From the IMG/VR virus record IMGVR_UViG_3300030106_001334, positions 1 through 28,564 of that record: a stretch of 28,564 nucleotides of DNA; one strand, 5' to 3'. Both the position numbers and the translations under genes were made by a program. The stretch's first letter is position 1. Every line of letters begins with the position of its first letter. This DNA is from a virus. Under the pieces are notes generated by a model. The model searched no databases. It saw nothing but the letters and a program-made list of their open reading frames with translations, and was not told the origin of the DNA. Shown piece after piece: positions 1,372 to 24,436 of this stretch.

Positions 1372-1826
1372 TGGCAACAATTGGAACAATATTTACAGGT
1401 GCTGCACTAGCTACAAATATGATGGCTGCTCAACAGCAAAGAAGAGCTGGTGCATTAACGCAACAACGATACAATGTTCAGGCAGAGAATGAACGTCTGA
1501 AGTATCGCTTTGAAGCCAATAGAAGTAGACAACAAACTGCACAAATACTTAGAAGAGCCAATGAAACACTTGCTTCAGCCAATGCTGGTTCGTATCGTAG
1601 AGGAGTTGATCCCTCTACATTTAACCTTGCGATCAACACGAGAATTCTTTCTCCGGCAATTACTGATTTAATTCAATCAGATGTCAACACACAACTTGCT
1701 GAACTTTCAGGCGAAGCACAATATGCTGATTTAATTAAGGCAGGAGAAATAGCCAAAGAAGGAGGAATTGCTGCTGGAACTATGACAATGGCAAGTGGGT
1801 TTCTTAATGCAGCGAGGATTGGCTAA
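1371..1826 (+). CDS. Internal virion protein (T7 gp14-like)
   Basis: This 151-residue protein starts on an ATG that shares its A with the stop of the tail gene and itself ends in a TAATG overlap with the next gene. The N-terminus (IGTIFTGAALATNMMAAQQQ) is a small hydrophobic Ala/Gly-rich segment, followed by a Gln/Arg-rich helical region with the motif NAGSYRRGVDPSTFN, and it ends with another Gly/Ala-rich stretch. This is the usual layout of gp14-type proteins, which leave the virion and help form the DNA ejection channel in the outer membrane. Position directly after tubular protein B and before two large helical proteins matches the gp14-gp15-gp16 order. Assignment rests on architecture and context rather than on a catalytic motif. 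Confidence 0.72.
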   Translation: MATIGTIFTGAALATNMMAAQQQRRAGALTQQRYNVQAENERLKYRFEANRSRQQTAQILRRANETLASANAGSYRRGVDPSTFNLAINTRILSPAITDLIQSDVNTQLAELSGEAQYADLIKAGEIAKEGGIAAGTMTMASGFLNAARIG

Positions 1827-3727
1827 TGGTAACTCCTTATAAGCGTACGGGGTTGATGACCGCTAGTTTTCAAGGGGCAAGAGGTGCAGCCTTAACTGAA
1901 GGTATTCGATCAGCTAATGCTTTGACTAGTCAGCTTAGTCAAATGTCTAATTTCTTTTTTAACCAAGCAGCACAACAAAGACGTATTGAAGGTCAAGAGT
2001 TTGGAGCTGCCAATGCACCAACCTTTGAAGAACTATTAGAAGCACAAAAGCAAGGAAAAAATCTTCTTGACTTTGCACCCACAGTATTTGGTCGTTCAGC
2101 AAAAGAAGCAGCATTAGCTACAGTAGAAAATGAAGTTACAGTAGATGCACAGAAAAGATTTGATGAACTTGCTTTCGAAGCCAATAAAAAAATGGTTAGT
2201 CCTACTGTTTTAAGGGATGATTTAGATGCAACTATTTTAGGATACAGTGAGGTTTTACAAGCAACATCCCCTGCCCTTGTAAGAAATTTGTCTGCAAAAT
2301 TATCTTTAAATGCTAACAATATATTTGATAGCTATAGAAAATCTTACGCAAGAGCATCAGCACAAAAATCAACTCTTGTAAATGTAGCTGCTCTCAATGT
2401 TGCAGAAAGAAATGTAATAGACGCATGGCAAAACCTCTTGGATGAACCTGATTTAACTGAAGATAAAGTTAAGAAAGAAGAAGTAGTTTTAAAATTAATT
2501 TATCAAAATGAACTTATGAAAAATGGTTCAAAGACAACAAAGTCTGACATGAATAGAATTGATAAAGCTTTTAGGGATATTGCAAAAGCAAAAGTACAAA
2601 ACTTTTTAGTTAATAACAGGGGAAATTTAAGTTTTAATATTGAGGCTATTCGTAAAAAATTTGGTGTTAAAGGCATTGATCCACAAGATGTAACAACACC
2701 AACAATAAATGGAATAATTAATTTTTTAACCGATGCAGAAAAAAATGCAATAATTACAACATCACTTGCAAACTATAGCGCAGAAAATACCCTTATTCAA
2801 CAACAAGATAACGCTTATGAAAATCGTCGAAAAGCTGCAAATGAAAGACTTTTAGTTTCAACCATTAATCTTTTATCAGGAATGCCAGTTGAGTTAGAGA
2901 ACGGCACAAAAATAATTCCTTATGATAATGAAGGTGTTTTAACAGAAGAAGCAAGTCTTTTGCTAAATACTATAGCAAATAGGGTTCTAAATAGTGGAGC
3001 AGAAAATGCAGAACAAATTTATAATGATATAACTACATCTATTAATGATGCAGATGGAAAAGTATTTAGATCACAACCAGGGTTAAAAGCAAGATTAGCA
3101 CAAAAAATAAGCAGTGGAAGTTTTACTTATCAAGACCTAGCAACTAATGCTCCTAATTTAAGTGCAAAAGATTTAGCAGAATTAAAAATACAATTAGATG
3201 GCGTTAAGGATGTAGATTTAGAAATAGCTCTAAATAATGGTGCAGAAGCTTTAAATAATTATGTAAGAGAAACTGAAGCTTTAGCTTTTTTTCATCCAAG
3301 GTATGAAGATCAAAGACTATACTTCAACTACGAAAATTATATGATTAAACAATTACTTAAAGCAAGACGAGGTGATGAACCTTTTGATGCGGAGTTAGCT
3401 AAAGATAAATGGTTTACAGAATTTAAAGGTGATCTTAAAAAACAATATAAAATAGAGTACACATCTAAATTTAATTCAATAACTAATCAAATTCTTACTG
3501 GCTCTGACAGTGCAAAAGTACCCAAAAAACAACTAGGTCAAAACTTATCTAATCTATTGGAAAATATAGTTAAAAACACTGAACGACAACAATCAGACTA
3601 TCAAGCGATTTTAAATGAACTAAGAAAGCAAAGGCAAAATAATTTTAACAACAATTCAGTTTTTCAAAAGCAAGGACCACAGGTAATATTTTTATTAGAG
3701 AAATTAATAGAGAATATGAATGAGTGA
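1826..3727 (+). CDS. Internal virion protein (T7 gp15-like position)
   Basis: This 633-residue protein lies where T7 encodes the ejection-channel protein gp15. It is strongly helical and rich in Lys, Glu, Asn and Ala, with long amphipathic and possibly coiled-coil stretches and no signal peptide or clear membrane helix. The start overlaps the previous stop by one base (TAATG), and its last eight bases overlap the next gene. From about base 2100 the coding sequence becomes markedly A-rich compared with the tail and fibre genes. There is no recognisable enzymatic motif. The role in DNA ejection is inferred from size, composition and order among internal virion genes; I would not distinguish it from an unrelated helical structural protein on sequence alone. 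Confidence 0.6.
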   Translation: MVTPYKRTGLMTASFQGARGAALTEGIRSANALTSQLSQMSNFFFNQAAQQRRIEGQEFGAANAPTFEELLEAQKQGKNLLDFAPTVFGRSAKEAALATVENEVTVDAQKRFDELAFEANKKMVSPTVLRDDLDATILGYSEVLQATSPALVRNLSAKLSLNANNIFDSYRKSYARASAQKSTLVNVAALNVAERNVIDAWQNLLDEPDLTEDKVKKEEVVLKLIYQNELMKNGSKTTKSDMNRIDKAFRDIAKAKVQNFLVNNRGNLSFNIEAIRKKFGVKGIDPQDVTTPTINGIINFLTDAEKNAIITTSLANYSAENTLIQQQDNAYENRRKAANERLLVSTINLLSGMPVELENGTKIIPYDNEGVLTEEASLLLNTIANRVLNSGAENAEQIYNDITTSINDADGKVFRSQPGLKARLAQKISSGSFTYQDLATNAPNLSAKDLAELKIQLDGVKDVDLEIALNNGAEALNNYVRETEALAFFHPRYEDQRLYFNYENYMIKQLLKARRGDEPFDAELAKDKWFTEFKGDLKKQYKIEYTSKFNSITNQILTGSDSAKVPKKQLGQNLSNLLENIVKNTERQQSDYQAILNELRKQRQNNFNNNSVFQKQGPQVIFLLEKLIENMNE

Positions 3728-4742
3728 ATTTTACGATGCTATTTCCAAATCAAGATCAAGAAGGCAAAGTGGTCTTGCATTTAATCAAACCTTTACACCA
3801 GAAGGTTCATTCTTTTCGTTAACAAAAGAAGATGCAGCTAGTATAGGTGCAGTACGGTCAGAAGGTTATAAACCAATTCCTACTGAACAAGGTGGTGGTA
3901 CGGATCGTGAGTTTATGACAGAAGTAAATTTATCTGATCCAACTACAGAACTTGGTAAGGTATGGATAGAAAATAGCAAAAAACTTTATGAGTTGTCTAA
4001 AGGTGAGAGCCAACAAGAACAAGCAGCAAAGTTTAATACTGATCCGGTACCTGATATGTTATTCAATCCAGCCAAAGGTAGAGATTTAAGACCTAAATCT
4101 GTTAAGACATTTCAGGAGAATAAGGTCAATAAAGAACCTCAAACAGATCAAGAGTTTGCTCAATGGGGTATTAACCATATTGGTTATATTAACTACAACC
4201 TTTCATATCTTGGTGTTAAAGCAACAGAAACAGTTTTAAGTAATGACCCAGAAACATCTTTGGCATTGTATCAAATGATGAATATGTACGATGAACTACC
4301 AAACTTTACTAGAGAAGGCACAATAAGAGCTGTAAAAGGTTTAGCTACTGATCCACTTACATACATTGGATTAGCTACGTTAGGAACGGCTGCACTTGGT
4401 AAAAAGATAGTTGGAGGTATGACAAAGGTAAAACTTAAAAAATTATTAGCTAACAACATCAAAGACAAATACGGTATGGACATTTTACTTGCTATTGAAG
4501 GTGGCTCATACATGGGTGCTGACGATATTGCAAGACAAACAATAGCTGTTAGTGCAGAAGAACAAGAAGGTATTGATGCTGGACAAACAGGAGAAAGTAT
4601 TGCCACAGGTGCTGTTCTTGGTCCTGTAGCTGGTCGAGCATTGAACGTAGCTGGTAAAGGAGTATCTGCTGCAACCTCAAAAGCAAAAGAAATAATTAAG
4701 AATAGAACTGAAAAATCAAAGGAAACTCCTGATGGTTCGTAA
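3720..4742 (+). CDS. Putative internal virion protein with glycine-rich hydrophobic C-terminus
   Basis: This 340-residue protein begins on an ATG eight bases inside the previous gene and overlaps the next gene by 11 bases. The first 120 residues are polar and probably extended; residues about 205-245 and 280-315 are Gly/Ala-rich hydrophobic stretches (for example TYIGLATLGTAALGKK and GAVLGPVAGRALNVAGKG) of the kind found in phage internal proteins that insert into membranes. No lysozyme or transglycosylase motif is visible. Together with the following 1065-residue protein it gives about 1400 residues, close to the 1318-residue T7 gp16, so the two may be the halves of a split gp16 equivalent. 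That is inference; a membrane-active ejection protein of its own is the alternative. Confidence 0.55.
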   Translation: MSEFYDAISKSRSRRQSGLAFNQTFTPEGSFFSLTKEDAASIGAVRSEGYKPIPTEQGGGTDREFMTEVNLSDPTTELGKVWIENSKKLYELSKGESQQEQAAKFNTDPVPDMLFNPAKGRDLRPKSVKTFQENKVNKEPQTDQEFAQWGINHIGYINYNLSYLGVKATETVLSNDPETSLALYQMMNMYDELPNFTREGTIRAVKGLATDPLTYIGLATLGTAALGKKIVGGMTKVKLKKLLANNIKDKYGMDILLAIEGGSYMGADDIARQTIAVSAEEQEGIDAGQTGESIATGAVLGPVAGRALNVAGKGVSAATSKAKEIIKNRTEKSKETPDGS

Positions 4743-13912: not shown

Positions 13913-14427
13913 TGGCTAAAAATAATTTTGAAAAAAGTTTAGAGCTTGTATTACAGGCAGAGGGTGGGTTCGTAAATCATCCCAAAGACCCAGGGGGTAT
14001 GACCAACTTAGGAGTTACCAAAGCTGTGTATGATAAATGGATTGGACGTACATCTACTGAAGAAGAAATGAGAGCATTAAAGCCAGAGGATGTAGCACCG
14101 ATCTACAAAAAAAACTATTGGGATAAAATATACGGAGATAAATTAGAAAGCGGATTAGACTTTGCTCTTTTTGATTGGGCGGTAAATTCTGGTCCAGGTC
14201 GTGCAGCTAAAGCTATACAAAGAATTGTAGGAGCAACACAAGACGGTGCAATAGGACCAAAGACTATGCAGAAAATAGCGAACAACGATACTAAGTATAT
14301 GATTGAAAAACTGCATGACCAGCGACAAGCATTTTACCAAGGTCTATCAACCTTTGAGCATTTTGGTCGTGGCTGGACACGCAGAAATAAACATACAAAA
14401 GATGAAGCCTTAAATATGGTAGGCTAA
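13912..14427 (+). CDS. Endolysin, GH108 muramidase
   Basis: The 171-residue protein carries the GH108 signature: catalytic Glu17 in AEGGFVNHPKDPGGMTNLG at the N-terminus, then the family motifs YWDKIYGDKL and DFALFDWAVNSGPGRAAKAIQ; the C-terminal half (GAIGPKTMQKI, then KLHDQRQAFY) is the peptidoglycan-binding-3-type part. GH108 enzymes cleave the N-acetylmuramic acid to N-acetylglucosamine bond in peptidoglycan. There is no N-terminal signal or SAR helix, so it should depend on a holin, and the GTA-type holin lies about 650 bases upstream. Its TAA shares three bases with the TAG of the convergent LexA-like gene. Length and motifs are normal for the family. Confidence 0.93.
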   Translation: MAKNNFEKSLELVLQAEGGFVNHPKDPGGMTNLGVTKAVYDKWIGRTSTEEEMRALKPEDVAPIYKKNYWDKIYGDKLESGLDFALFDWAVNSGPGRAAKAIQRIVGATQDGAIGPKTMQKIANNDTKYMIEKLHDQRQAFYQGLSTFEHFGRGWTRRNKHTKDEALNMVG

Positions 14428-14657
14428 ATTAAATCTCTTATTATCTTGATTGCTCTTGGGTGAGCCTTCTTCGTCTCAATAAATCCTCGTTGAACAAGTT
14501 GATCTATGAGTGAAGCCATTGAAGCCCTGCTTTTGTGACCTGTGTGTTGCATAATTTCCTCATAGGATGGCATATATTTATGTTTACGATAGTATTTTTT
14601 CATAAACTTCAAGACTTGAACTTGACGAGGTGTAAGTGGGAAATCTTCCATAATCAT
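14424..14657 (-). CDS. LexA-type DNA-binding-domain-only regulator
   Basis: The 77-residue protein is the winged-helix domain of LexA and nothing else: PLTPRQVQVLKFMKKYYRK, then MPSYEEIMQHTG, recognition helix region KSRASMASLIDQLVQRGF and a wing ending HPRAIKII. By eye it fits alphaproteobacterial LexA (SKSGIHRLITALEERGF) better than the E. coli form. LexA normally has a C-terminal autoprotease/dimerisation domain of about 120 residues; here the gene stops after the wing, so it cannot be cleaved through RecA. Its ATG overlaps the RecT gene's stop (ATGA), so it is the last gene of the leftward operon. It probably binds LexA-like operators such as the site at 18233-18247; that link is inference. 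Confidence 0.82.
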   Translation of the reverse strand: MIMEDFPLTPRQVQVLKFMKKYYRKHKYMPSYEEIMQHTGHKSRASMASLIDQLVQRGFIETKKAHPRAIKIIRDLI

Positions 14658-15217
14658 TTTGGTTGCTCCTCAGACTTAGTTTCTGGCTCGCTGACGACCT
14701 TCATTTCTGGGTAGTCTTCTGCTTCTTCTCTGGTAATCACACCTGCCATAGCGTCAGGAAATCCATCTCTCAAAGCAAAACCTCTGGCTCTCATTTGTAA
14801 CATCCTATCAGGATATGATTTCCACGGTCCTCGTGTAGTTAGGTCAGCTTTCTTTGCATCTCTCCAAGAAAATGTTTTAGTGATCTCTTCTATCTCACCA
14901 CCCTGAAGTCTTTTGACAGTGCAAGTAGCCGTCCGGTCATCACCTTCACCATCGATCGTTTCTTTGATCCCTTTACAATCGGGATGTCGCCTGACCAATC
15001 CGATCAAAGCATCACCCCAAAGCGTAGGTCTACCGTTGATGACAGCAATGTTTTGAAGTGCTTGAAAGGGATTTAGACCCATTGACATACCTGCTTGGAT
15101 TGCAACAAGACAATCAAGTGGTTTGCCACTGTAGGTTTTAGGCACTAGGTTCGAGCTTGAAAACTGTTTGGCAAGCCTCTCGAGTTGAGCGTAGTCCTTC
15201 GGAACTAAATTAGTCAT
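14654..15217 (-). CDS. recT: RecT-family single-strand annealing protein
   Basis: The 187-residue protein has the conserved core of phage RecT-like recombinases: KPLDCLVAIQAGMSMGLNP, FQALQNIAVINGRPTLWGDA, TFSWRDAKKADL, GPWKSYPDRMLQMRARG and ALRDGFPDAMAG. RecT proteins bind single-stranded ends made by a partner exonuclease and anneal them to complementary DNA. It starts directly after the stop of the YqaJ-type exonuclease gene, the classical pair, and overlaps the LexA-like gene by four bases. The C-terminus is an acidic Glu-rich tail (SEPETKSEEQPK). It is shorter than E. coli RecT (269 residues) because the variable N- and C-terminal extensions are reduced. Confidence 0.85.
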   Translation of the reverse strand: MTNLVPKDYAQLERLAKQFSSSNLVPKTYSGKPLDCLVAIQAGMSMGLNPFQALQNIAVINGRPTLWGDALIGLVRRHPDCKGIKETIDGEGDDRTATCTVKRLQGGEIEEITKTFSWRDAKKADLTTRGPWKSYPDRMLQMRARGFALRDGFPDAMAGVITREEAEDYPEMKVVSEPETKSEEQPK

Positions 15218-16141
15218 CTAAATCTCCCTGATTGAAAATCTTTTGTGAGAACGTGCAGGTTTGGCCGGCATCATTTGCTCTGGTTTGGCTGAAACATTGA
15301 CTGTCTTGTGTTCAATCAAATAGTTTTTAAAAGTTGCCCGTTCTGAATTAAGCTTTTGCATCACCCCCTGGATTTGAGCATCAATAGTTTCCAGGCTATC
15401 CTTCCACTTGGTCGCTTCTGCTTTGGCAGTCATTCGGCTGTCCAACATCACCTCCATCTGTCGTGCAAACGCATGGTCATCCAAGTTGATTACTGGAGGT
15501 TGCTCATTGTCCTCCTCGTAGGGAATATCTTTGTCAACCTTGTACCAAAACTCTCGAACTTTACTCATAATTATGGCAATCATCTTTTCTGATCTTTTGT
15601 ACGGATATAGCTTTACATTTAAATCATTACCCATTTTTGAGATGATCCCAAACCTAGCACCTGTAACCGCCATTTGGGTTTGCAATTGCCATTCATATCT
15701 CATGATGGGGGGAACCGTAGACTTACTTTGAGCATCAGTTTTAAATTCATTAATAATCAAGGATCTCATAGGAAAGTCATTTCCCATTGGATTTGGAATA
15801 ATTAAGTCCTTATCGACTTTAAATTTACTGTCACAAGAACAACCAAGACGTTCCTCAACAATGCGATCGGCTCCATTGACGTCAATTATTTCTAGATTAG
15901 TCCCTTCCCTCATTGCCTCCCGAATTAAATTGTAGCTTTGAAGTTTCACAAAAGGCTCAAGCCAAAGACCTCTTTTCATTGCTTTTGTAGGCTCTTGTGG
16001 AGAGGGAACCACCCCTTGCTTGATTGCCACCCATTGTTTTCTAAGCTCTTCTTTGGTTTGACCTGAAAAACTATTTTCACCTTCAACAATCGTTGCGACT
16101 GTAGTTGCTCCAACTTCCTTTCCATCAACTGTGTGTTTCAT
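15218..16141 (-). CDS. YqaJ-type viral recombinase exonuclease
   Basis: I choose the ATG at 16141, which overlaps the upstream stop (TGATG), giving 307 residues. The nuclease core is visible: RGLWLEPFV with Glu62, CSCDSKF with Asp104, and INEFKTD with Glu132 and Lys134, the D-(E/x)xK pattern of lambda-exonuclease/YqaJ enzymes; YEWQLQTQMAVTGARFGI follows, typical of YqaJ. Such enzymes degrade the 5' strand of linear duplex DNA. Residues about 215-285 add a helical coiled-coil-like extension. Its partner is the RecT protein encoded right after it. Metal-dependent activity is known for the family and inferred here. Confidence 0.82.
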   Translation of the reverse strand: MKHTVDGKEVGATTVATIVEGENSFSGQTKEELRKQWVAIKQGVVPSPQEPTKAMKRGLWLEPFVKLQSYNLIREAMREGTNLEIIDVNGADRIVEERLGCSCDSKFKVDKDLIIPNPMGNDFPMRSLIINEFKTDAQSKSTVPPIMRYEWQLQTQMAVTGARFGIISKMGNDLNVKLYPYKRSEKMIAIIMSKVREFWYKVDKDIPYEEDNEQPPVINLDDHAFARQMEVMLDSRMTAKAEATKWKDSLETIDAQIQGVMQKLNSERATFKNYLIEHKTVNVSAKPEQMMPAKPARSHKRFSIREI

Positions 16142-16371
16142 CAGAACCCCCATACTTCAGGCCAAGAACATGTCTGAGACATGGCACAACCAACAGCTAA
16201 AAAAATGTAAATTGAAACAAACAAACAAACTGCTCCGAAAATTTCAGTCAAAGTCTCTTTAAGTTTGTTAAGTTTGTTGAGTGTAGCAAGTCTGTTAGGG
16301 TCAAGAAAATCTGACACGTTATATATTATGCGAATAATTTCACTGTAGTAGGTTATAAGTATTTGTTTCAT
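16141..16371 (-). CDS. Small membrane protein of recombination operon
   Basis: The 76-residue product has a helical N-terminal half (about residues 1-45) and one membrane helix at about 46-64 (FGAVCLFVSIYIFLAVGC), followed by a short Trp-rich tail containing CSWPEVWGF. A strong GAGGAG lies just upstream on the minus strand, and the stop overlaps the exonuclease start. I do not recognise a family. Its place before the exonuclease/RecT pair suggests it is co-expressed with them; a superinfection-exclusion or host-interaction role is possible but unsupported. Confidence 0.6.
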   Translation of the reverse strand: MKQILITYYSEIIRIIYNVSDFLDPNRLATLNKLNKLKETLTEIFGAVCLFVSIYIFLAVGCAMSQTCSWPEVWGF

Positions 16372-16478: not shown

Positions 16479-16901
16479 CTATTTGGCATTCATAAAGCTC
16501 CCGTCAGGAAACCCCATTTTTGTTGGCGACGCTCTTCTCTTTAGTTCTGATCCAGCATGAGTGACAATGAGCTGCGCAAAAATCACGGTGCGATACATAT
16601 CAGTTTTAGCATACCCTGTTTTTGTAAGTCCCGAGCGACCACGGATCAGGTTGTCAAGTTCATTAGCTGTTTTTCTTAAAACTTGGATGGCATCTTTTAC
16701 GTGTTGATGATTACACAATGGAACAGTAATGCGACTTGCTACTTTTTTACGGTGAAACAACATATATTGCTCATCAGATAGATTTTCTTGTGCAAACTGT
16801 TCCCGTTGCTTTGCATTGAGATTGGGCAATATAAGCTTTTCTCTCAAAGCGTGACCGCCTAAATCCTTTGTGTCATGTCTGTTCATTTGGCTTTCCATCA
16901 A
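16479..16901 (-). CDS. Unknown 140-residue helical protein
   Basis: The protein is charged, mostly helical and without membrane segment or signal (MNRHDTKDLGGHALREKLIL, later NQHVKDAIQVLRKTAN-like HVKDAIQVLRKTANELDNLI, RGRSGLTKTGYAKTDMYRTV). The start is not settled: ATGs at 16901, 16898 and 16886 are all possible and no strong ribosome site is visible. It lies between two operon genes in the same direction, and just upstream is the tandem palindrome at 16952-16989. I recognise no family. Residues RGRSGLTKTGYAKTD are the most distinctive segment. Confidence 0.6.
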   Translation of the reverse strand: MMESQMNRHDTKDLGGHALREKLILPNLNAKQREQFAQENLSDEQYMLFHRKKVASRITVPLCNHQHVKDAIQVLRKTANELDNLIRGRSGLTKTGYAKTDMYRTVIFAQLIVTHAGSELKRRASPTKMGFPDGSFMNAK

Positions 16902-16951: not shown

Positions 16952-16989
16952 GAGTTTATGATATGAACTCGAGTTTATTTCGTGAACTC
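16952..16989. repeat. Tandem 19-base palindromic repeat
   Basis: GAGTTTATGATATGAACTC (16952-16970) is followed directly by GAGTTTATTTCGTGAACTC (16971-16989). Both read GAGTTTAT-N4-TGAACTC; each is a near palindrome of GAGTT-N9-AACTC, and their junction AACTCGAGTT is perfectly palindromic. A related half appears in 17016-17033. It lies at the end of the 159-residue gene, upstream of the 140-residue gene on the minus strand; candidate operator or recombinase site. Confidence 0.6.
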
Positions 16990-17435
16990 ACGTACTTGGT
17001 ATGGTAATAAATGCTGGACTTAATCATAAGTTCACTTACCTGATAGCATTTTATCTTCTCTGAAACATGGCTTGGATGACTAGTAAACCACCCTTCTTCC
17101 ACGCAATGTTTAAAGACAAGTGATACAAAAGCTTTTTTGAGATGGGGAAATCTTTCTAGGATTTGTTTTTGTGTTGACCATCTTTTCATAAAAGTCCTCA
17201 ACGTCACAAATGCACCGATCAATCTTTTATCAAGATGGCTTCTGAAATAAAACGTAGCTCTACGCATCTTGGGATCATTGGGTATGGGATAGTTTTGATA
17301 GTTAAAAAAGGCAAGTTCAAGTGATAGATTATGGATAATACTTTCTATAAGCTCAGGTGGCGCAAGGATATGATTTCTGTCATCTTTTTCAATAGCAGTG
17401 CCTGACTTCTGATTGTTTCTAAAATTAAAGTTCAT
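16956..17435 (-). CDS. Unknown 159-residue protein downstream of serine recombinase
   Basis: I use ATG 17435, which overlaps the recombinase stop (TAATG) and has GGAGAAAA just upstream; an earlier in-frame start would lie inside the recombinase. The product has a basic, helix-rich middle (RRATFYFRSHLDKRLIGAF, TLRTFMKRWSTQKQILERF) and a segment resembling a winged-helix region (HLKKAFVSLVFKHCVEEGWF). It may be a DNA-binding accessory protein, for example a partner of the recombinase, but no family is recognised. Its last codons coincide with the first bases of the tandem palindrome at 16952-16989. Confidence 0.65.
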   Translation of the reverse strand: MNFNFRNNQKSGTAIEKDDRNHILAPPELIESIIHNLSLELAFFNYQNYPIPNDPKMRRATFYFRSHLDKRLIGAFVTLRTFMKRWSTQKQILERFPHLKKAFVSLVFKHCVEEGWFTSHPSHVSEKIKCYQVSELMIKSSIYYHTKYVSSRNKLEFIS

Positions 17436-18205
17436 TATTTTTCTCCATAAATTCGTTTGACTAAGTTTGAAACATTCGACGGACCCCACTTGCCACCACG
17501 CCTGGTTTTGTACATGTCGGTGTGATTGTTGAGATAGGATGCCATTTCACGTAAACTGTAGCCTTGTTTGACAAGATCGACGATGACAGGTCGCATCCTT
17601 TCAGCAAAAGCATCTGCTTCCTCCTGAATAGCTTCATGCCCCTTCTCTCTTGCGTCTTCCATGTTTGAGTGAATGCCTAGCTGGGTGATTTTCTTCCCTG
17701 ACTTGGTGGTGTAGTGACCTTTGTCCTCAATGACTTCATTGATGCGTCCCAACGCTGATTTTGTGTTTAAAGATATTTTTTCTCGCATGTCCTGGGCCAT
17801 GGCGACTTTGATGGCAAGAACAAGCTTGTTTTGCTTTGGGTCGGCAGACAACATAGGATCGTCACAGACAATCAAGTTTACCTTCCCAGTCTCAACATGT
17901 TGCTCAAAGAATTGAAGCCCATGCCAAGCAGTCCTGAACAGTCTGGAGATCGAGCTGACAATGACTGTCGCTTTCTTTTTCTTGGCTGCGTCCATTGCTT
18001 CCTTCAAAACAGGTCTTTTGTCAGGATGAACTTTACCACTGATGTTTTCTTCAAACCATTCAACCGTATGATCGCCACCGTTGAGGAAGTCACGAATGTC
18101 CTTTTTGTCTCTCTCTGTTTCCTGTTTATTGGTCGATACACGGACATAAGCTATGTAGTTTCCTTTGTGTGGCTGACCGGATGTGCTTTGGTTAGCTGGT
18201 GACAT
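17435..18205 (-). CDS. Serine recombinase (resolvase/invertase family)
   Basis: The 256-residue protein has the catalytic domain of serine recombinases: YIAYVRVSTNKQ with nucleophile Ser24, and SSISRLFR with Arg88 and Arg91 in the place of the catalytic Arg pair, then a long helix with QDMREKISLNTKSAL. The C-terminal 80 residues include IVDLVKQGYSLREMASYLN and a basic end (KTRRGGKWGPSNVSNLVKRIY), a helix-turn-helix for DNA binding. It is longer than small resolvases (about 185 residues) but much shorter than phage large serine integrases (about 500), lacking their zinc ribbon and coiled coil. It has an AAAGGAG ribosome site. It opens the leftward operon; integration or genome resolution are both possible. 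Confidence 0.9.
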   Translation of the reverse strand: MSPANQSTSGQPHKGNYIAYVRVSTNKQETERDKKDIRDFLNGGDHTVEWFEENISGKVHPDKRPVLKEAMDAAKKKKATVIVSSISRLFRTAWHGLQFFEQHVETGKVNLIVCDDPMLSADPKQNKLVLAIKVAMAQDMREKISLNTKSALGRINEVIEDKGHYTTKSGKKITQLGIHSNMEDAREKGHEAIQEEADAFAERMRPVIVDLVKQGYSLREMASYLNNHTDMYKTRRGGKWGPSNVSNLVKRIYGEK

Positions 18206-18232
18206 TAAATGTTCTCCTTTGTATCTATAACA

Positions 18233-18247
18233 GTTCGTTTAATGTTC
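18233..18247. promoter_or_regulatory. Alphaproteobacterial-type LexA (SOS) box
   Basis: The sequence GTTCGTTTAATGTTC is an exact GTTC-N7-GTTC, the direct-repeat LexA operator known from alphaproteobacteria. It lies between the recombinase start and the predicted leftward minus-10, where a bound repressor would block leftward transcription. The exact pattern is seen; its use as a LexA site is inferred. Confidence 0.65.
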
Positions 18248-18255
18248 GTCTTTAC

Positions 18256-18278
18256 TGTACATATACCAGGATGGTACA
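18256..18278. promoter_or_regulatory. Imperfect inverted repeat, candidate operator
   Basis: TGTACAT at 18256-18262 and ATGGTACA at 18271-18278 form an inverted repeat with one extra base in the right arm. GTAC centres are 17 bp apart, and the repeat overlaps both predicted promoters. It is a candidate binding site for the RHH protein encoded 46 bases downstream. Confidence 0.45.
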
Positions 18279-18323
18279 TTGTGCAAGACCTAGATGTTAC
18301 TTTTTTTTGAACGAAGGTGAATT

Positions 18324-18473
18324 ATGAAGCAGGTACACATTAGAATAAACGACGAAGTCTATGAAAAACTTAAAGAATTAGCCGAGAAGGATCGTAGATC
18401 AATGGCTAGTTTGGCTGAGTATATTTTATCAAAAGGCTTGCACGATTTTAAAAAAGAGCTTGAAAAAGCATGA
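18324..18473 (+). CDS. Ribbon-helix-helix regulator (Arc/CopG type)
   Basis: The 49-residue protein starts at ATG 18324 behind GAAGGTGA. It has the whole RHH fold: a beta strand QVHIRIND, helix A EVYEKLKELAEKDRR, and helix B MASLAEYILSKGLHDF. RHH proteins dimerise and insert the paired strands into the major groove. As the first gene of the rightward operon, beside the divergent control region, it is well placed to autoregulate and to balance the two operons, as Arc does in P22. Its stop overlaps the next start (ATGA). Confidence 0.78.
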   Translation: MKQVHIRINDEVYEKLKELAEKDRRSMASLAEYILSKGLHDFKKELEKA

Positions 18474-18694
18474 CCCCGGAGTTCAGTCAACCAACACTTG
18501 CATTTTTGCTATTGGAGTTCCCTACCCTTGTTGATTGTCAGGTTGTCGTAAAGCATCTGGTTGGTTTCATCCATCACAATTTGTTCGTGAATTGTCACAA
18601 TCACGATGACAGCTATGCATTTTGGTTTGAACACTGGATGCAACACAATCATTTTCGAGAAGTTCCACCTTCAAGACCGAAGGTGCTTGAATGA
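18470..18694 (+). CDS. Unknown 74-residue protein, His/Phe-rich
   Basis: The protein shares a four-base ATGA overlap with the RHH gene upstream and with the nuclease gene downstream, which argues strongly for translation. It contains HHNLFVNCHNHDDSYAFWF and ends HFREVPPSRPKVLE. The many His, Cys and Asp residues in the middle could bind metal, but the spacing does not match a known motif. No family is recognised. Confidence 0.6.
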   Translation: MTPEFSQPTLAFLLLEFPTLVDCQVVVKHLVGFIHHNLFVNCHNHDDSYAFWFEHWMQHNHFREVPPSRPKVLE

Positions 18695-19029
18695 GGTTTA
18701 ACAAGTTCAATGCCCACAAAACCGAGGTCGATGGCATTTTATTTGACAGTAAGAAAGAAGCCAAAAGATATAGTGAATTAAAGTATTTGGAGAAAGCAGG
18801 TCAGATACACAACCTGGAGCTTCAACCCAAGTTTGAATGTATAGTGAAGGAGAAGAAGATATGTACCTACAGAGCAGATTTCAGATATTTCGACAAGCAC
18901 CAGAAGGGAGTGTTGGGTCAGGAAGGAACCATGGTAGTCGAGGACGTAAAGGGCTTCAAAACACCAACCTACAGGTTGAAAAAGAAGCTGGTCGAGGCAT
19001 TGTTCCAGGTGAAGATAACCGAATTATGA
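18691..19029 (+). CDS. DUF1064 nuclease-like protein
   Basis: The 112-residue product matches the DUF1064 pattern (PF06356): NKFNAHKTEVDGILFDSKKE at the N-terminus, then ELKYLEKAGQIHNLELQPKF, YRADFRYFD, VVEDVKGFKTPTYRLKKKL. Family members have a PD-(D/E)xK/Vsr-like nuclease fold; here FDSKKEA (Glu24 region), ADF and EDVKG carry the likely active-site acids and Lys. Phage members usually sit among replication genes and may resolve or nick branched DNA, but the reaction is not firmly established. GAAGGTG precedes the start. It overlaps the next gene by four bases. Confidence 0.85.
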   Translation: MRFNKFNAHKTEVDGILFDSKKEAKRYSELKYLEKAGQIHNLELQPKFECIVKEKKICTYRADFRYFDKHQKGVLGQEGTMVVEDVKGFKTPTYRLKKKLVEALFQVKITEL

Positions 19030-22475: not shown

Positions 22476-23967
22476 TTTTAGATCCTCTCCCGTTATCTGG
22501 AAGTTTCTTAATAATAATTCTTTTGTTCGGGCTTTAATGGGTCCAGTAGGATCGGGAAAGTCTTATGCCTGTTGCGCTGAATTGTTTAAACGAGCGGTAA
22601 GTCAAAAACCTTCTAAAAGAGATGGAATACGCTATTCACGGTTTGCGGTTGTAAGAAACTCTTATCCCATGCTGAAAACAACAACCTTGAAGACCTGGCT
22701 AGAATTATTTCCTGAAGATACCTGGGGGCCAGTTCGCTATGCACCACCAATTACTCATCATTTAAAATTACCTTCTAGAGAAGGAGCTGCCGGAGTAAAC
22801 ATGGAAGTAATATTTTTAGCTTTGGATCAGCCCAAAGACGTACGAAAGTTATTATCCTTGGAACTTACTGGTGCTTGGGTCAATGAAGCCAGAGAGCTTC
22901 CCAAGGCAGTAATTGATGGACTTACGCACCGTGTTGGCCGTTATCCTTCCAAAGCCGATGGTGGACCAACTTGGCGAGGAATAATCTTGGATACAAACCC
23001 TATGGACAGCGATCATTGGTATTTTAATCTAGCTGAAAAAGAAACCCCCAAAGGAGAATTTGCTTGGAAATTCTTTAGACAAAATGGTGGGGTTATGGAA
23101 ATAGAAAGTAAGAACGTACCGGCTGATAGTCCAGAAGCAAAAGGATTTATTTTTTCGGCTGGTAAATGGTGGGAAACAAATAGCAAGGCAGAGAATTTAG
23201 GCAATCTTCCTTCTGGATATTATGAGCAGCTTTTAGGGGGTAAGAAATTAGATTGGATTAGATGTTATGCTGAGGGTAAGTATGCATTTGTTCAGGAAGG
23301 TAAACCTGTCTGGTCGGAATATGATGATGATACGATGGTTGACGACCTTGTTGTTGAAGAACATATTCCAATACAAATTGGTTTGGACTTTGGATTAACC
23401 CCTGCTGCTGTTTTTGCTCAGAAAATGCCTAATGGACGGTGGCACATATTGCATGAACTTGTGACTTTTGACATGGGTCTAGAACGCTTTTGTCATATTT
23501 TAAAATCAGAAATAAATAATAGATTTCCAAACATTAGCGTACAAATCTGGGGCGATCCTGCTGGTATGCAACGGGATCAAATCTTTGAAACAACGGCCTT
23601 TGACCATTTAAAAACCCATAATTTATTGGCTAGACCTACGGCTACAAACGATTTCAAGGTACGAAGAGAAGCTTTAGCTGCTCCAATGGGAAGATTAATT
23701 GAGGGGAAGCCTGGGTTATTGGTTGATCGTAATTGTGTTCGTCTTAGAAAAGCTCTTTCTGGTGGCTATCATTTCAAAAGAATAGCGATTGGAGCCGGTC
23801 AAGAACGGTTTAAAGATACGCCAAACAAGAATGAGCATTCACATATTGGCGACGCTGGGGGATATTGTTTGTTGGGAGGAGGAGAACATCGAAGAATAAC
23901 CAGAGGAACGTCGCCACAATTTAGACAACCTGTCCAAGCCAATATTGATTTTGATGTTTTTGCCTAG
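22456..23967 (+). CDS. Terminase large subunit
   Basis: The 503-residue protein has an N-terminal packaging ATPase with Walker A GPVGSGKS at residues 29-36 and a Walker B-like strand LTGAWVNEARELP with the catalytic Glu; and a C-terminal RNase H-like nuclease with Asp311 (GLDFGLTPA), Asp367 (WGDPAG) and Asp466 (HIGDAGGY). It pumps phage DNA into the procapsid and cuts concatemers. A headful or other packaging type cannot be read from this alone. Start overlaps the small basic gene and has AGGTGTAAG upstream. Length is normal. Confidence 0.93.
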   Translation: MTPLKLDFRSSPVIWKFLNNNSFVRALMGPVGSGKSYACCAELFKRAVSQKPSKRDGIRYSRFAVVRNSYPMLKTTTLKTWLELFPEDTWGPVRYAPPITHHLKLPSREGAAGVNMEVIFLALDQPKDVRKLLSLELTGAWVNEARELPKAVIDGLTHRVGRYPSKADGGPTWRGIILDTNPMDSDHWYFNLAEKETPKGEFAWKFFRQNGGVMEIESKNVPADSPEAKGFIFSAGKWWETNSKAENLGNLPSGYYEQLLGGKKLDWIRCYAEGKYAFVQEGKPVWSEYDDDTMVDDLVVEEHIPIQIGLDFGLTPAAVFAQKMPNGRWHILHELVTFDMGLERFCHILKSEINNRFPNISVQIWGDPAGMQRDQIFETTAFDHLKTHNLLARPTATNDFKVRREALAAPMGRLIEGKPGLLVDRNCVRLRKALSGGYHFKRIAIGAGQERFKDTPNKNEHSHIGDAGGYCLLGGGEHRRITRGTSPQFRQPVQANIDFDVFA

Positions 23968-24436
23968 AGATTTAGAGAAAGCTATGAAAATGGACGGCAT
24001 ATTTAGCCGGTTAGTCCCTTTTGATCCCTTTCATCTTACCTTAATGGAATATAGACCCCTCGATGAAGCTGTCCTTTCGGCCAATTTAGACTTCATGGTA
24101 ACGGATGGTTTGTCCTTTTCAGCCTTTCATAGAAACAACTGCATCCTTTGTTTTGGCATACAACCCATTTGGAAAGGCAACGCTGAGATTTGGATGCTTG
24201 TGAATAAAAATATTGGACAGGATCGGTTTGTTTTTCATAAGGCAGCCAAGCGATTATTCCCCTTTATTGGCAAATGTTTACAACTCGTTCGCTTACAATG
24301 CCATGTCTGTTCAGAGAATGTTCAGGCTACCAAATGGATTGAGAAAATGGTATTTAATCAGGAAGGTTTATTAAAGCATTACGGGCCAGAGGGACGGGAT
24401 TACTTCATGTATGCAAGATACTTCAAGGGGGAATAG
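23945..24436 (+). CDS. gp13-like GNAT-fold phage protein
   Basis: The 163-residue product has CILCFGIQPIWKGNAEIWM followed by QDRFVFHKAAKRLFPFIGK and CSENVQATKWIEKMVFN, the pattern of T7 gp13-like (DUF2833) proteins with an acetyltransferase fold, in which an initial 'CFGI-P---G-(A/E)-(I/V)W(M/L)' strand leads to a helix and the final 'A-KW(I/L)-K--F'. In T7, gp13 acts in virion assembly; an acetyl-transfer reaction is not shown. The start is uncertain (23945, 23954 or 23984). It lies between terminase and portal as often in podoviruses. Confidence 0.72.
   Translation: MILMFLPRDLEKAMKMDGIFSRLVPFDPFHLTLMEYRPLDEAVLSANLDFMVTDGLSFSAFHRNNCILCFGIQPIWKGNAEIWMLVNKNIGQDRFVFHKAAKRLFPFIGKCLQLVRLQCHVCSENVQATKWIEKMVFNQEGLLKHYGPEGRDYFMYARYFKGE

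Follow-up and report, generated by a model that had tools for sequence, protein, structure and literature searches.

A phased direct repeat in the divergent switch of a marine phage family as the probable operator of a phage-encoded LexA DNA-binding domain

A direct repeat of GAAC half-sites, phased at 11 bp and lying just past the inferred -10 of a leftward promoter, is very probably a real control site for a recombination operon throughout a family of marine tailed phages. We propose that this repeat, R2, is the operator of a LexA-type DNA-binding domain encoded by the phage itself (mini-LexA), which would feed back on its own recombination operon within a two-repressor switch whose other member, an RHH protein, probably acts at a second repeat, R1. 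On the comparisons of sequences presented below, we consider this the probable reading. The window, i.e. the whole stretch of DNA analysed, is an IMG/VR virus record of 28,564 nucleotides (IMGVR_UViG_3300030106_001334) that carries genes for head, tail, lysis, replication and recombination. A gap of 118 bases (18206-18323), its extent correctly given in a preliminary description of this DNA, separates the leftward serine-recombinase operon from the rightward gene for a 49-aa RHH protein. The features of the switch and its operon are as follows.

14424-14657, minus strand: mini-LexA, closing gene of the leftward operon; its 77 aa comprise a LexA DNA-binding domain and no peptidase domain (PF01726, E 2.5e-13; fold)
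14654-15217, minus strand: RecT-like single-strand annealing protein (family profile matches)
15218-16153, minus strand: RecE/YqaJ-like exonuclease (PHROG 434, E 1.8e-19; Pfam YqaJ just under cut-off)
16141-16371, minus strand: small operon protein, matching no family
16479-16901, minus strand: operon protein, matching no PHROG
16956-17489, minus strand: operon protein, 66% identical in the twin contig (comparison with the twin)
17435-18205, minus strand: serine recombinase of resolvase/invertase type, first leftward gene (Pfam Resolvase 1.5e-21, PHROG 125/95)
18233-18247, minus strand: R2, direct repeat GAAC-N7-GAAC (ACGAAC-N5-ACGAAC) with an 11-bp period, proposed mini-LexA operator
18258-18263, minus strand: inferred -10 of the leftward promoter, TATGTA (relatives' weight model, score 22.8; consensus only)
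18258-18280, minus strand: R1 position, spacer to -10, proposed RHH operator (relatives' 11-bp repeat)
18281-18286, minus strand: inferred -35, TTGCAC, with a 17-base spacer (relatives' weight model)
18287-18300, minus strand: conserved element GTAACATCTAGGTC preceding the -35, ~GTTACGTCTAGGTC across the family (relatives' promoter model)
18324-18473, plus strand: 49-aa RHH/Arc-like repressor, first rightward gene (RHH_5 1.7e-7, Arc-like PHROGs)
18691-19029, plus strand: Holliday-junction-resolvase-type nuclease, the anchor for the switch in relatives (PHROG 190, 2e-34)

The leftward operon thus runs from the serine recombinase through three further proteins to the RecE-like, RecT-like and LexA-type domain proteins. 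Its member at 16956-17489 appears to be a mosaic or fast-changing gene, judged by its 66% identity to the twin; window positions 17000-17500 hold 123 differing columns against that contig and the neighbouring bins 0-19. Elsewhere in the window, two large proteins encoded between the genes for the tail and those for internal virion proteins (1826-3727 and 3720-4742) matched no PHROG family at E 0.001.

The exact motif in the window and in relatives

The element reported in the preliminary description is present: GTTCGTTTAATGTTC, at 18233-18247 on the plus strand, matches GTTC-N7-GTTC at 8 of 8 positions. The whole-window scan proposed there returned one further exact copy only, at 24309-24323 within the CDS 23945-24436. 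Two copies compare with 0.74 expected and two or more occurred in 15 of 100 shuffles; the bare count in the window alone is not significant, and one-mismatch copies are at chance level (21 versus 22.1 expected). With one base changed (GTTCAGAAAATGTTC), the copy in the CDS is found at five loci on four contigs of relatives (L039, L040, L041 and L042, which equals L101), where it probably recurs through encoding conserved residues, i.e. through protein-coding constraint.

The significance of the motif at 18233-18247 comes not from the window count but from the switch regions of relatives: in 7 of 50 distinct regions an exact copy falls within 44 bases past the -10, where its frequency elsewhere in the same loci (14 in 502,212 bases) would predict 0.0012 per 44-base stretch. 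In the twin contig (3300030060_002742) all 118 bases of the gap are unchanged, which by itself is uninformative, since identity in the flanks is approximately 96-98% (about 97%).

The leftward promoter

A generic sigma-70 scan of 18100-18400 found no promoter, and the leftward promoter of the window was placed through relatives alone. The weight model was seeded with 13 promoters picked by eye and refined on 193 loci with 300 bases or more preceding the nuclease gene, which is present in 196 of 319 sequences; 73 loci (41 distinct) exceeded a score of 12 in the final round, giving the family promoter form ~GTTACGTCTAGGTC-TTGTAC-N17-TATCTA. The match in the window is placed at 18300 on the minus strand. 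The motif starts 10 bases past the -10 so assigned, over the probable transcription start, and it ends 27 bases short of the leftward start codon (first base 18205). Just upstream of the leftward -35, the ~GTTACGTCTAGGTC element is strongly conserved in the window and relatives, with an A-tract beyond.

In relatives, the promoter spacer carries R1, an 11-bp direct repeat of the form GATATC-N5-GCTATC that is weak in the window (GTACCATCCTGGTAT). Its lag-11 signal (z 7.6) is biased, as most of the 13 seed promoters carry R1 (R2 lies outside the model), and an extended -10 may make up part of R1; on these grounds, and because it is weak in the window, we do not take R1 to be a clean RHH operator. 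Of the four groups lacking an adjacent RHH gene, three show little or no R1 (1 in L124, 0 in L153, 3 in L109, and 6 in the L159 group), compared with a mean of 4.76 where such a gene adjoins (n=42), four groups being too few for a test.

An 11-bp repeat fixed across the family

Past the leftward -10 of relatives, in 46 distinct regions (24 sequence groups), direct repeats are strongly enriched at a lag of 11 (z 7.2; none of 300 dinucleotide shuffles as high). This lag stands alone, the others from 4 to 19 giving z values of -2.5 to 1.1. Control regions, the 48 bases upstream of five other genes, showed no lag-11 excess (z -1.8 to -0.3); lag 12 was raised in two of them (z 2.8 and 4.3). The consensus GAAC-N7-GAAC is matched at 7-8 of 8 positions in 16 of 26 groups versus 0.48 expected, and 500 mononucleotide shuffles yielded at most four such groups; in both tests the groups were cut at 75% identity and are not fully independent. 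Scores were 8/8 in 4 groups, 7/8 in 12, 6/8 in 6, 5/8 in 2 and 4/8 in 2, most of the 10 groups at 6/8 or below still being phased at 11 bp. The count covers 50 rows: L211 and rows whose promoter score did not exceed 13 were dropped, L134, L444 and L434 were entered by hand, and in L179 and L263 the GAAC match scoring best lies out of the repeat register.

The letters of the repeat vary considerably. Next to ACGAAC-N5-ACGAAC in the window we find TTGAAC three times in L183, GTGAG-N6-GTGAG in L142, GGGAA-N6-GGGAA in L043, ACAAAC-N5-ACAAAC in L351 and GGT/AGT/GGT in L181. Three phased copies occur in L183, L185, L188 and L320. In L102/L105, where the LexA domain is present, GAAT is spaced at 9 bp, not 11. 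Position, phase and consensus fixed across the family make it very probable that the site controls the leftward recombination operon, as first suggested from the window. That it is a product of chance, or a purely coding or structural repeat read by no regulator, would accord with two exact copies not being rare for the window; given this constancy among relatives and the flat control regions, we regard it as very improbable.

A LexA DNA-binding domain in the same operon

The last gene of the leftward operon encodes the N-terminal winged-helix domain of LexA (PF01726, 50 bits against a cut-off of 23.7). The protein has 77 residues and ends after the wing, with no match to the S24 peptidase/dimerisation domain. 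PF01726 was matched in all 11 family members scanned and the S24 peptidase in none; among the longest open frames for the domain in relatives the median is 82 aa and the range 69-136. A gene for this domain lies no more than 2.5 kb past RecT in 18 of 18 distinct loci that carry the family recombinase together with a family terminase, portal or nuclease gene and whose sequence extends 2 kb past RecT. When every distinct RecT locus with this 2-kb extension is counted, a set in which many belong to other phages, the figure is 74 of 132. The fold predicted from 11 sequences (pLDDT 86.6, pTM 0.75) finds LexA in all its best PDB matches (VIA Z 12.2-13.1; next fold 9.8), the top VIA match having a Z of 13.1 over 70 residues at 1.4 A. 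LexA also came first in Foldseek (E 4e-5). Identity to two alpha-type LexA domains is 31% over 67 residues. As it is without the peptidase domain, the predicted protein could not answer RecA by self-cleavage. A lone LexA DNA-binding domain is also without the usual dimer interface.

This last point weighs against mini-LexA as the reader of R2, as do the following and the 9-bp spacing in L102/L105. Among phages with a GAAC-type R2, the recognition helices differ by letter (SRASMASLIDQL in the window, SNNTVFHLLKAL in L183, SPASVQRIITEI in L134). Diverged LexA-type domains are found in L083, L057, L076 and L111, and L083 shows no R2 repeat.

Which protein reads R2

One indication of the reader comes from a natural exchange, seen on comparing L188 with L181. 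Between them the recognition helix STNSVFNLINKL is replaced by AISTIQFHIKGM and the R2 copies GAAC/GAAA/GAAC by GGT/AGT/GGT, both sets at 11 bp, while the GATATC repeat in the spacer and the RHH strand VP[LF]Y[LC]RL are kept. Identities are 72% for the RHH protein, 29% for the LexA domain and 40% for R2. Within the group where RHH and R1 are near-constant, five members have LexA domains 45-71% identical and R2 sites of the GAAC type; L181, in contrast, has a domain 27-34% identical to theirs, a different R2 (33-43% alike) and an RHH protein 72-77% identical. This is the one clear joint replacement of domain and R2 found, and the RHH protein drifted there too (72%). The RHH contact letters of L181, which we assign by analogy to Arc, are unchanged where R2 has changed.

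Alternatively, R2, and perhaps R1 as well, could be read by the RHH/Arc-like protein of the opposite transcript, bound as tandem dimers at a spacing of one turn, with the LexA-like domain acting elsewhere. Its gene adjoins the site, and RHH tetramers bind half-sites approximately 11 bp apart. Across 18 phages, R2 distance correlates with domain distance (r 0.61) and with RHH distance (r 0.57); in partial Mantel tests R2 stays correlated with the domain after controlling for RHH (r 0.39, p 0.0008) and with RHH after controlling for the domain (r 0.31, p 0.007). This set comprises 18 of 30 domain-R2 pairs, near-duplicates, L083 and pairs without RHH being omitted, and its statistics do not separate mini-LexA from RHH as the reader. 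An RHH reader is, however, at odds with L181, where R2 changed and the RHH strand and R1 were kept, and with the persistence of R2 in phages where a search beside the switch found no RHH gene (L159, L165, L124 and L119, with L153 judged by its first ORF). The repeat is kept in this way in L124, L153 and L159/L165/L169; R2 is perfect in L153, whose contig ends ahead of the expected position of the domain gene. We therefore consider an RHH reader quite unlikely. Mini-LexA is favoured, though not proven, because of the joint replacement in L188 and L181, the conserved domain and the retention of R2 without an adjacent RHH gene.

Host LexA and the host of the family

The preliminary description had named host DNA damage or the phage LexA-like protein as governing the operon; the phage protein is the better candidate, and host LexA as the reader is not supported. 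If the LexA of an alphaproteobacterial host acted on GTTC-N7-GTTC, DNA damage would derepress the phage recombination operon. GTTC-N7-GTTC is described as the alphaproteobacterial LexA motif (PMC3323433), so that the R2 consensus is exactly what host-LexA control would also predict: the window retains this box at 8/8, and among family phages 16 of 26 groups retain 7-8 of 8 positions. Two MAGs holding relatives' contigs have full-length alpha-type LexA, with a GTTC/GAAC-N7 box upstream of lexA, which serves as a positive control for the motif; cross-binding to R2 is therefore plausible in such a host. A further relative, L324 (terminase 67%), lies in a 186-kb Hyphomicrobiales contig. Against this reading, 10 of the 26 groups retain 6 positions or fewer and mostly still keep the 11-bp phase, so the letters of R2 drift while its phase is kept; some phages carry three phased copies (L183, L185, L188, L320); R2 of L181 changes along with the phage's own LexA domain; and a phage LexA domain is present in every testable member. 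With the mixed host evidence below, we judge control by host LexA unlikely. Host LexA may bind R2 as well if the host is an alphaproteobacterium, but this is not needed to explain the site.

The motif had also been offered as a clue to the host, for which it is not safe, because the nearest isolate infects OM43 and relatives fall into many bins. This isolate, MEP301 (terminase 65%, portal 58%), is followed by Pelagibacter phage Hodr (44% and 36%); a nucleotide search of phages with the window gave short matches only. MEP301 infects OM43 (PMC8024684), which is placed in Gammaproteobacteria (PMC9004378), and the LexA motif described for beta/gamma-proteobacteria is CTGT-N8-ACAG (PMC3323433). No such box was found in the window, the twin loci L003/L004, MEP301 or Hodr, and MEP301 has no exact GTTC-N7-GTTC. 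Viral-contig scans with the recombinase, RecT, portal, terminase and resolvase-type nuclease gave at least several hundred loci. A genome scan located 17 loci of relatives in bins of Gammaproteobacteria, Flavobacteriaceae, Opitutae and Alphaproteobacteria; these bins, mixed and mostly of short contigs, were set aside as host evidence. L324, within the Hyphomicrobiales MAG contig, holds at its positions 1600-4000 an RHH-like frame and GCTATC-N5-GATATC beside leftward genes, and could represent a prophage integrated there. These results caution against inferring the host of a phage contig from an 'SOS box'.

Proposed mechanism and relation to known systems

The comparisons show the repeat with its phase and family-wide position, the conserved gene with its LexA fold, and one case in which both were replaced; from these we infer the binding of mini-LexA to R2, the repressive sign of this binding and the positions of the promoter and transcription start. 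As mini-LexA accumulates, it would bind side by side to GAAC half-sites one helical turn apart past the leftward -10. Repression is suggested by the position of R2 over what should be the first transcribed bases of the operon, where a bound protein could block initiation or clearance, and negative feedback by the mini-LexA gene being last in the same operon: the transcript for serine recombinase, RecE, RecT and mini-LexA would be shut off, so that recombinase, exonuclease and annealing protein would be made in an early, self-limiting burst. The RHH protein of the opposite transcript probably represses via the separate 11-bp repeat R1 in the promoter spacer.

A mini-LexA regulator is a known kind of protein. 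Gp6 of the Bacillus thuringiensis phage GIL01 is a truncated LexA homologue that binds a phage promoter, and it acts as an activator at a palindrome, GaCACAC GTGTGaC, over the -35 and centred at -43.5 (PMC6182141). Both proteins are phage-encoded and essentially the LexA DNA-binding domain alone, promoter binding being a prediction here. R2, by contrast, is a direct repeat past the -10, not a palindrome over the -35, and points to repression, in marine tailed phages; the working mode is therefore probably different. New here are an operator built of direct repeats past the -10, the way it drifts and varies in copy number, and its occurrence in a marine RecET operon. An operator of the R2 type was not described in the titles and abstract openings searched, which is no proof of its absence in print.

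With alphaproteobacterial LexA, the proposed system shares the half-site, the N7 spacing and the DNA-binding fold, and differs in that mini-LexA is without the peptidase/dimerisation domain and that the letters and copy number of R2 vary between phages. With Arc/Mnt-type systems it shares a 49-aa RHH gene opening the opposite transcript at the switch, and the QxHxR strand of the window protein resembles QxNxR of Arc; R2 does not follow RHH in L188/L181, however, and R1 is the likelier target. MEP301 likewise has a resolvase-YqaJ run on one strand and a short RHH-like gene on the other, but it has an ERF-family annealing protein in place of RecT, no mini-LexA by domain model and no exact box.

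A lone motif thereby becomes a proposed two-repressor switch that can be tested, in a marine phage family that is abundant and hardly cultured. Natural pairs of tiny LexA domain and operator, one exchange among them, could show how such domains choose half-site and spacing. More speculatively, as the operator consensus equals the alphaproteobacterial SOS box, these widespread phages might encode an uncleavable LexA mimic that, in an alphaproteobacterial host, also occupies the host's SOS promoters, keeping the response to DNA damage off throughout infection, and at the same time sets the timing of the phage recombination genes; we regard this as a doubtful extension of the proposal.

Two further variants of the switch were observed. 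In a related group (L050, L053, L057 and L090), R1 and R2 are absent; inverted repeats of the AGGCAATTATGCCT type follow the -10, the RHH protein is a different one, and some members have a diverged LexA-type domain. In the switch of L345, the RHH frame appears broken near its start relative to L342.
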